DNA of 64,000 nucleotides. It comes from Halorubrum sp. 48-1-W. Lineage in GTDB: Archaea > Halobacteriota > Halobacteria > Halobacteriales > Haloferacaceae. The stretch is from contig NZ_QMIM01000004.1 in the NCBI RefSeq assembly GCF_003287355.1, positions 62,001 through 126,000 of the forward strand, given 5' to 3'. Shown here piece after piece: positions 38,998-40,420 of the stretch. The position numbers were made by a program, and so were the translations under genes. Below the pieces are notes generated by a model. It was not told the DNA's origin and ran no database searches. It was given only the letters and a program-made list of their open reading frames with translations. Position 1 is the stretch's first letter; each line of letters starts with the position of its first letter.

Positions 38998-39852
38998 TCA
39001 GTCGTCGTCGGCCGCGGCGCCGGGAGTCGCCGCGCCGAGTCCGGCGGCCATGCCTGCGACGATCGTCTCGTTGCTAACGACCCACCGAAGCAGCAGGAAC
39101 GCGAAGAGGTACTTCGCGCCGATGTCGAGGATGCTGTATGCCCACGAGGTGATCGCGACGTCGAGCACCGCGAACCCCTCGGCCCCGAGCGCCCAGAAGA
39201 TCGGGTAGCCGAGCCACAGCACCACCGTCAGCACCTTCAGCGTGTCGAATATCTCGGAGGTTCCGGCCGTCTCGGCGTCTTTGGACCACTCGACGAGCAG
39301 GATGTACAGCACCACGGCGAAGAACGCGCAGCTGATCGCGTACCAGAACCAGCGGAGCGCGTAGGAGGACGTGGTGAGCGCGGCCGCGAGCCCGGTGACA
39401 CACATCCCGATGTCGGCCACGATGGCCGTGAAAAGCTTGGTCACGTTCGACCCCGCGAGCAGGCCGAGCGCGAGCAGGATCATCGGCGTCGACAGCGCCC
39501 ACGTGAGGTACCGGCCCCACATCGTGAGCACTTCCTCGCCGGCGAACACGTGTCCCGGCGGCATCTCGAGGAAGCTTATCGTGAGCCCCGACGCCAGCCC
39601 CGTGTAGCTCGAGATCGAGACGAGCGGGACCATGAGCGTCGCGACGAAGATGAGCTGTGAGCGCGGGTCCTCGACGTTTCGACCCATGTAGACGAAAAGC
39701 AGGATCGACAGCCCGGCGAGCGCAATGTTCGCCCAGAACGAGAGGTTCAACAGTTGGTCCGCCTGTATCTCCCGATACACCTCCGCCTGGGTCAGTTCCA
39801 TCGGGACACCCTGTGACGCGATCGCTAGGTCGGCTACGGCTGTTTCAATCAT
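38998..39852 (-). CDS. hop: halorhodopsin, light-driven chloride pump
   Basis: This 284-residue seven-helix retinal protein has helix C as GRYLTWALSTPMILLALGL with R114, W118 and the chloride-pump T117-S121-A128 triad (bacteriorhodopsin has D-T-D). Helix G is SILDIGAKYLFAFLLL with counter-ion D243 and retinal lysine K247. Other helices match the Natronomonas pump closely. The B-C loop is shorter than in that protein. It imports chloride on illumination and helps salt and potential balance. The start at 39852 gives MIETAVADLA. The promoter region includes a Bat-like element (see separate entry). No brp/blh or bat gene is in this window. Confidence 0.95.
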   Translation of the reverse strand: MIETAVADLAIASQGVPMELTQAEVYREIQADQLLNLSFWANIALAGLSILLFVYMGRNVEDPRSQLIFVATLMVPLVSISSYTGLASGLTISFLEMPPGHVFAGEEVLTMWGRYLTWALSTPMILLALGLLAGSNVTKLFTAIVADIGMCVTGLAAALTTSSYALRWFWYAISCAFFAVVLYILLVEWSKDAETAGTSEIFDTLKVLTVVLWLGYPIFWALGAEGFAVLDVAITSWAYSILDIGAKYLFAFLLLRWVVSNETIVAGMAAGLGAATPGAAADDD

Positions 39853-39880
39853 GCAACACCAGTGTTTCGGGGGGGAGTCA

Positions 39881-39912
39881 GATAAGGGCGATACCCAACC
39901 AGTGTGGTATCG
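39881..39912 (-). promoter_or_regulatory. hop promoter: Bat-like upstream element in an inverted repeat, plus TATA
   Basis: On the minus strand, ACCACACTGGTTGGG (39908 to 39894) matches the remembered Bat consensus ACCcnactagTTnGG at all but two lower-weight positions. Six bases downstream is CCCTTATC (39888 to 39881), a TATA candidate. The outer bases form CGATACC (39889-39895) / GGTATCG (39906-39912), a perfect 7-bp inverted repeat with 10-base spacer. A second short palindrome AACAC-CA-GTGTT lies at 39855-39866. Confidence 0.55.
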
Positions 39913-40006: not shown

Positions 40007-40420
40007 ATGTACCGGAGACGGTTCCTCGAGCGGGCCGGCGTGGCAGGCATCGCGGCCGGAGCCTCGCTCTCGCTCGCCGGCTGTCTCGCCGACCAGTACG
40101 ACGTGGGCATGACCGCGACCGAGTTCCGTCCGGCGGAGGTGACCGTCGAAGTCGGCGACGCCGTGACCTGGGAGAACACGAGCGTCCGCGGCCACACCGT
40201 CACCGCCTACGAGGACGCGATCCCCGAGGAGGCCGAGTACTTCGCCTCCGGCGGGTTCGGGAACGAGGCCGCCGCCCGCGAGGCGTGGTCCGACTTCGGC
40301 GGCCGCCTCGAGAACGGCGACCGCTTCTCACACACGTTCTCGGTCCCCGGCCGATACGACTACGTCTGTCTCCCTCACGAGACGGGCGGGATGGTCGGGG
40401 CCGTGATCGTCGAGGAGTGA
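40007..40420 (+). CDS. halocyanin-like blue copper protein
   Basis: This 137-residue protein starts MYRRRFLERAGVAGIAAGAS, a twin-arginine (RRRF) signal. A lipobox Cys (LSLAGC, residue 26) follows, so it is exported folded and lipid anchored. The cupredoxin domain has the copper ligands His in VRGHTVTAY (near 64), and Cys and His in YVCLPHETGGM (near 123), with Met following. This is the plastocyanin/halocyanin site, so it carries electrons at the outer membrane face. ATG 40007 gives the signal. It is followed by a TauE/SafE-like gene and a copper ATPase, suggesting a copper-supply module. Confidence 0.9.
   Translation: MYRRRFLERAGVAGIAAGASLSLAGCLADQYDVGMTATEFRPAEVTVEVGDAVTWENTSVRGHTVTAYEDAIPEEAEYFASGGFGNEAAAREAWSDFGGRLENGDRFSHTFSVPGRYDYVCLPHETGGMVGAVIVEE

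Follow-up and report, generated by a model that had tools for sequence, protein, structure and literature searches.

Halorhodopsin is a classic protein and an optogenetic tool. In the literature searched, no description of its transcriptional control was found, and no listing of its gene, hop, as a target of the activator Bat; the primary papers on the Halobacterium upstream activating sequence were outside the scope of that search. The closest described element is this Bat upstream activating sequence (UAS), which we take to have the consensus ACCcnactagTTnGG with 13 fixed letters. It is established at the bop, brp, bat and crtB1 genes of Halobacterium, with genetic evidence at bop for both the UAS and the dependence on Bat (PMC1502140, PMC1447603). 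In Halobacterium, stationary phase brings an increase in the transcripts of both bacteriorhodopsin and halorhodopsin (PMC2880973). Other described proteins that resemble Bat are BAT-LOV* of Halorubrum hochstenium, with a Cys-less LOV domain that has a Pro at the adduct position (PMC4682037), and DmsR, an HTH_10 activator of the dms operon (PMC1447603).

In this work we analyzed the hop promoter of Halorubrum sp. 48-1-W in a window of 64,000 nucleotides, together with its genome and the hop promoters of relatives; unprefixed positions are those of the window. The hop box shares with the Halobacterium bop UAS the dyad core, the location directly upstream of TATA and 11 of the 13 fixed letters of the consensus, which bears out the claim of the first-pass annotation that it fits at nearly every fixed position. 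As in the Halobacterium purple-membrane regulon, the genome has a Bat gene and the same box at bop; unlike in that regulon (bop, brp, bat and crtB1), the box is found at hop and none is found at crtB, crtY-brp or bat. The Bat protein of this genome has a LOV cysteine, which we list as a difference from the Halobacterium bop system. It shares with BAT-LOV* the LOV, GAF and HTH make-up of the bacterio-opsin activator family, but it has the Cys and falls in a class linked to bop, which shares 34-37% identity with the Pro class. With DmsR it shares the C-terminal HTH type, whereas DmsR controls anaerobic respiration. Judged by its consensus, TATA spacing and conservation, and by the Bat gene and bop box of the genome, the hop element is of the Bat UAS kind.

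The hop gene and its promoter

The hop gene (38998-39852, minus strand, ATG at 39852) encodes a halorhodopsin of 284 amino acids (PF01036, E 9e-55), and its orthologues in Halorubrum are 88% identical. At the positions of bacteriorhodopsin D85, T89 and D96 the protein carries T, S and A (TWALSTPMILLA), which we take to be the usual chloride-pump signature. Upstream of hop, and divergent from it, a gene for a copper protein resembling halocyanins is found (40007-40420); the promoter stretch of this gene looks conserved in genome G057.

A sequence position search places ACCACACTGGTTGGG at 39894-39908 on the minus strand, 55 bp ahead of the hop ATG. It is part of a Bat-type upstream activating box, ACCACACTGGTTGGGT, a 16-bp dyad (39893-39908, minus strand) that is conserved in hop genes and is also present at bop. 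The dyad architecture of the hop box is ACC-N2-ACT|(A/G)GT-N2-GGT, with ACC-N2-ACT|GGT-N2-GGT as the copy found here; the box matches the core CCnnACnnGTnnGG in 8 of 8 letters, and the dyad core is CC-N2-AC-N2-GT-N2-GG. Seven bp downstream of the box lies a TATA-like CTTATC (39881-39886, minus strand), usually TTTA or CTTA in other hop and bop promoters. The first-pass annotation was therefore right about the coordinates of a Bat-like box on the minus strand just upstream of a TATA candidate.

It had also described a perfect 7-bp inverted repeat bracketing the box. Such a repeat, CGATACC-N10-GGTATCG, does exist at 39889-39912: its arms (39889-39895 and 39906-39912) are 7 nt long, 100% complementary and 10 nt apart, and it has a dyad axis in common with the box. 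However, most of it is explained by the two-fold symmetry of the box itself, with ACC and GGT being the outer ends of the box dyad. All that it adds are the four base pairs CGAT/ATCG, and these are not conserved: in the promoter comparison they are absent from the nearest relatives (G057 and L005-L007), and only 9 to 44% of promoters have complementary flank pairs at the positions 2 to 5 outside the 16-mer. Because these flanks are not kept even in close relatives, we rejected the idea that the repeat forms a dimer site of its own. A further small repeat is seen at 39853-39867, where the ACACTGGT of the box recurs directly before the hop ATG as a 5-2-5 inverted repeat (AACACTGGTGTTGC); it was not seen in relatives.

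The box is conserved in related hop promoters. The exact 8/8 core occurs within 150 nt upstream in 53 of 80 named haloarchaeal hop loci, a set that includes members of Natrialbaceae, Natronomonas and Halococcaceae, against a background of 0.7% per random 150-nt stretch of the same loci. Within the genus Halorubrum the site is present at 55-57 bp before the ATG in all 44 hop genes found, with the core intact in 43. The bop promoters of other genera carry the box CCnAACTAGTTGnG 7 bp before CTTA, and the spacing between box and TATA is near-constant across relatives.

Bat, bop and the box in the genome

On a contig other than that of hop, a bat gene (C27:20848-22536; L137:8846-10537) encodes a protein of 563 amino acids with PAS/LOV, GAF, BAT and HTH_10 domains (PF13426, PF13185, PF15915 and PF04967). 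The bop gene starts 79 bp downstream of bat and its promoter, CCTAACCAGTTACGT-ATGTCG-TTTA, bears the same box, at a distance from TATA equal to that at hop; in this bop box, CG replaces the GG of the consensus. Thus a bat gene of the expected kind, next to a box-bearing bop, is present in the genome. The profile search found 22 HTH_10 domains in the genome, and a single LOV-Bat protein at E<=1e-60.

The LOV motif of Bat, GRNCRFLQG, contains the adduct-forming Cys position, and phototropin and other LOV domains are among the best matches in the PDB, with E values down to 3e-34. With this homology and the photoactive cysteine, Bat looks like a blue-light sensor. It is 34-37% identical to the Pro-type Bat of most members of the genus. 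Close relatives of the bop and bat pair occur in other genera, which suggests an exchange of the pair between lineages. Both genes lie directly downstream of A-type ATP synthase genes (C27:20022-25600), so that the pump and ATPase loci are neighbours.

How often such a box occurs by chance depends on what is counted. The bare 15-mer with one mismatch allowed has 31 matches in the genome against 17 for the reversed control, and the letters of the 15-mer alone are therefore weak evidence. The exact relaxed consensus ACCNNACTNGTTNGG has a single match in the whole 3.58-Mb genome, at hop. The box core followed by 7 bp and YTTA is found at three sites in the 3.58 Mb (control 1): hop, bop and one on contig C30. 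At the last site (C30:15790-15814) the perfect dyad CCGAACGTGTTCGG is separated from CTTA by 7 bases; an HTH_10 gene and a gene for a sulfur-carrier-like protein are nearby. It is without the ACT(A/G)GT centre and the count is in line with the control, and we rejected it as a third Bat box; it is probably a chance occurrence or the operator of another regulator.

In the genome, no box of at least 9/12 was found upstream of the two crtB-family genes, the crtY-brp operon, bat, the second bop or the sensory rhodopsin gene. The BCD-family gene is present in a single copy. The first-pass annotation had suggested that the box would place hop in the purple-membrane regulon and had called for the same box to be sought at brp, crtB and other rhodopsins. 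Bat control of hop is well supported and the box was found at bop, but the regulon is narrower here than in Halobacterium, with no box found at crtB, crtY-brp or bat.

Two Bat classes and the hop box

The LOV-Bat proteins form two classes. In the Cys-LOV class the motif is NCRFLQG and the recognition helix RSTFHQHLR; it adjoins bop in the genome studied here. In the Pro-LOV class, which matches the published BAT-LOV* of Halorubrum hochstenium (PMC4682037), the motif is NPR[FL]LQG and the helix RQTFHQHLR, and it adjoins hop in several genera. In the wider family, at least 11 genomes have a Bat-like gene at a distance of no more than about 1 kb from hop, either divergent from it or downstream of it. 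In the genus-wide set, genomes whose LOV motif was not read were assigned a Bat class by identity to the Bat described here (61-67% for Cys, 34-37% for Pro); this rule proved right wherever it was checked.

The hop boxes were scored for bop-likeness with a matrix built only from the bop boxes of other genera. They are bop-like in 9/9 Cys-Bat genomes (score >=15.0) and in 0/32 Pro-Bat genomes (score <=10.0). The Cys-type box has TTGGG and the Pro-type box TCAGG. The cut-off of 12 was chosen after seeing the first genome set; genomes added later fell on the predicted side of it, including one new Cys-Bat genome (G173, 18.8). The simple p values for the association of class with score are 2.5e-6 (rank test) and 3e-9 (Fisher), both inflated by the kinship of the genomes. 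On the hop tree there are four changes of Bat class and four changes of box, all in step; in an independent-pairs test all pairs agree, with four switches being too few to reach 0.05. Halorubrum kocurii has both Bat classes, yet it keeps a Pro-type hop box.

Among 52 genomes of the genus, 43 have both hop and Bat, one has hop only, one has Bat only and seven have neither (Fisher 5e-7). Decay of the box is greatest in G105, the genome with hop only: the core there is 7/8 and the bop-likeness score is the lowest, while the TATA (TTTAA) is intact. Good boxes are found at the sister hop genes, which belong to Cys-Bat genomes. This locus (L183; G105:C2:590876-591745), where hop stands without a detected Bat or bop and with a degraded box, is a natural knock-out.

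From these comparisons it can be proposed, with chances that we consider evenly balanced, that the two Bat classes read slightly different dyads and that the hop promoter was re-tuned about four times in the genus, through a small number of base changes, to match the resident Bat, which would put the chloride pump studied here under a Cys-LOV Bat. Such a switch of regulator class with a matching change of site, proposed here from comparative data, appears to be new.

Control of hop

It is highly probable that the hop box is a Bat-type upstream activating sequence and that the Bat of this genome switches on bop and hop together. The evidence consists of the box with its constant geometry and its conservation, its presence at bop as well, the bat gene, and the co-variation of box and Bat class. 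At both promoters Bat, probably as a dimer, would bind the near-palindromic box of 16 bp just ahead of TATA; once bound, it would help to recruit the basal transcription machinery, as at Halobacterium bop. Since the recruitment would take place at both promoters, the proton and chloride pumps would be switched on together. With the spacing usual in archaea, transcription of hop would start a few bases ahead of the ATG. The signal would be that of Bat, which may be blue light, sensed with the LOV cysteine, and perhaps also low oxygen or redox in the manner of Halobacterium bop; a response of hop itself to oxygen or light is inferred. The stationary-phase rise of both pump transcripts in Halobacterium fits such joint control, being no proof of it. 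Small zinc-finger co-activators, Brz for example, might also play a part.

Another explanation is that the box is a real hop operator which is read by another HTH_10 regulator or by a Brz-like zinc-finger protein, with Bat merely correlated. The many HTH_10 domains of the genome would supply candidates, and for Brz, which regulates bop and crtB1 in Halobacterium, action through the same upstream sequence has been suggested (PMC2253796, PMC3184054). We consider this unlikely, as the hop box tracks the LOV-Bat class over four switches, is decayed in the lone Bat-less hop genome and has Bat-like genes adjoining hop in many genomes, and as the genome studied here has one LOV-Bat only at the threshold used.

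It could also be that the box is a repressor or silencing site at which Bat or a relative silences hop when oxygen is present or light is absent. A position just upstream of TATA cannot by itself separate an activator from a repressor; however, the position equals that at bop, where Halobacterium Bat activates (PMC1447603, PMC1502140), and both pump transcripts go up in Halobacterium stationary phase (PMC2880973). Such a role is thus very improbable, and Bat would act at hop as an activator rather than a repressor. Least credible of all is a chance resemblance, in which a GC-rich promoter happens to fit a loose consensus. In its favour is the count of 31 one-mismatch 15-mers against 17 for the reversed control, but the exact match is unique in the genome, the geometry of box and TATA is nearly confined to hop and bop, and chance is already contradicted by the conservation of the position, in several families and over the 44 hop genes found in the genus.

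Control by Bat, the reading that we prefer, would place halorhodopsin under the same sensor-activator as bacteriorhodopsin. The hop promoters of the genus would also provide a series of regulator swaps made by nature, each accompanied by a corresponding change of the binding site. Through these swaps, the DNA recognition of Bat, and with it the long-standing question of whether Bat senses light directly, would become testable by a few base changes.
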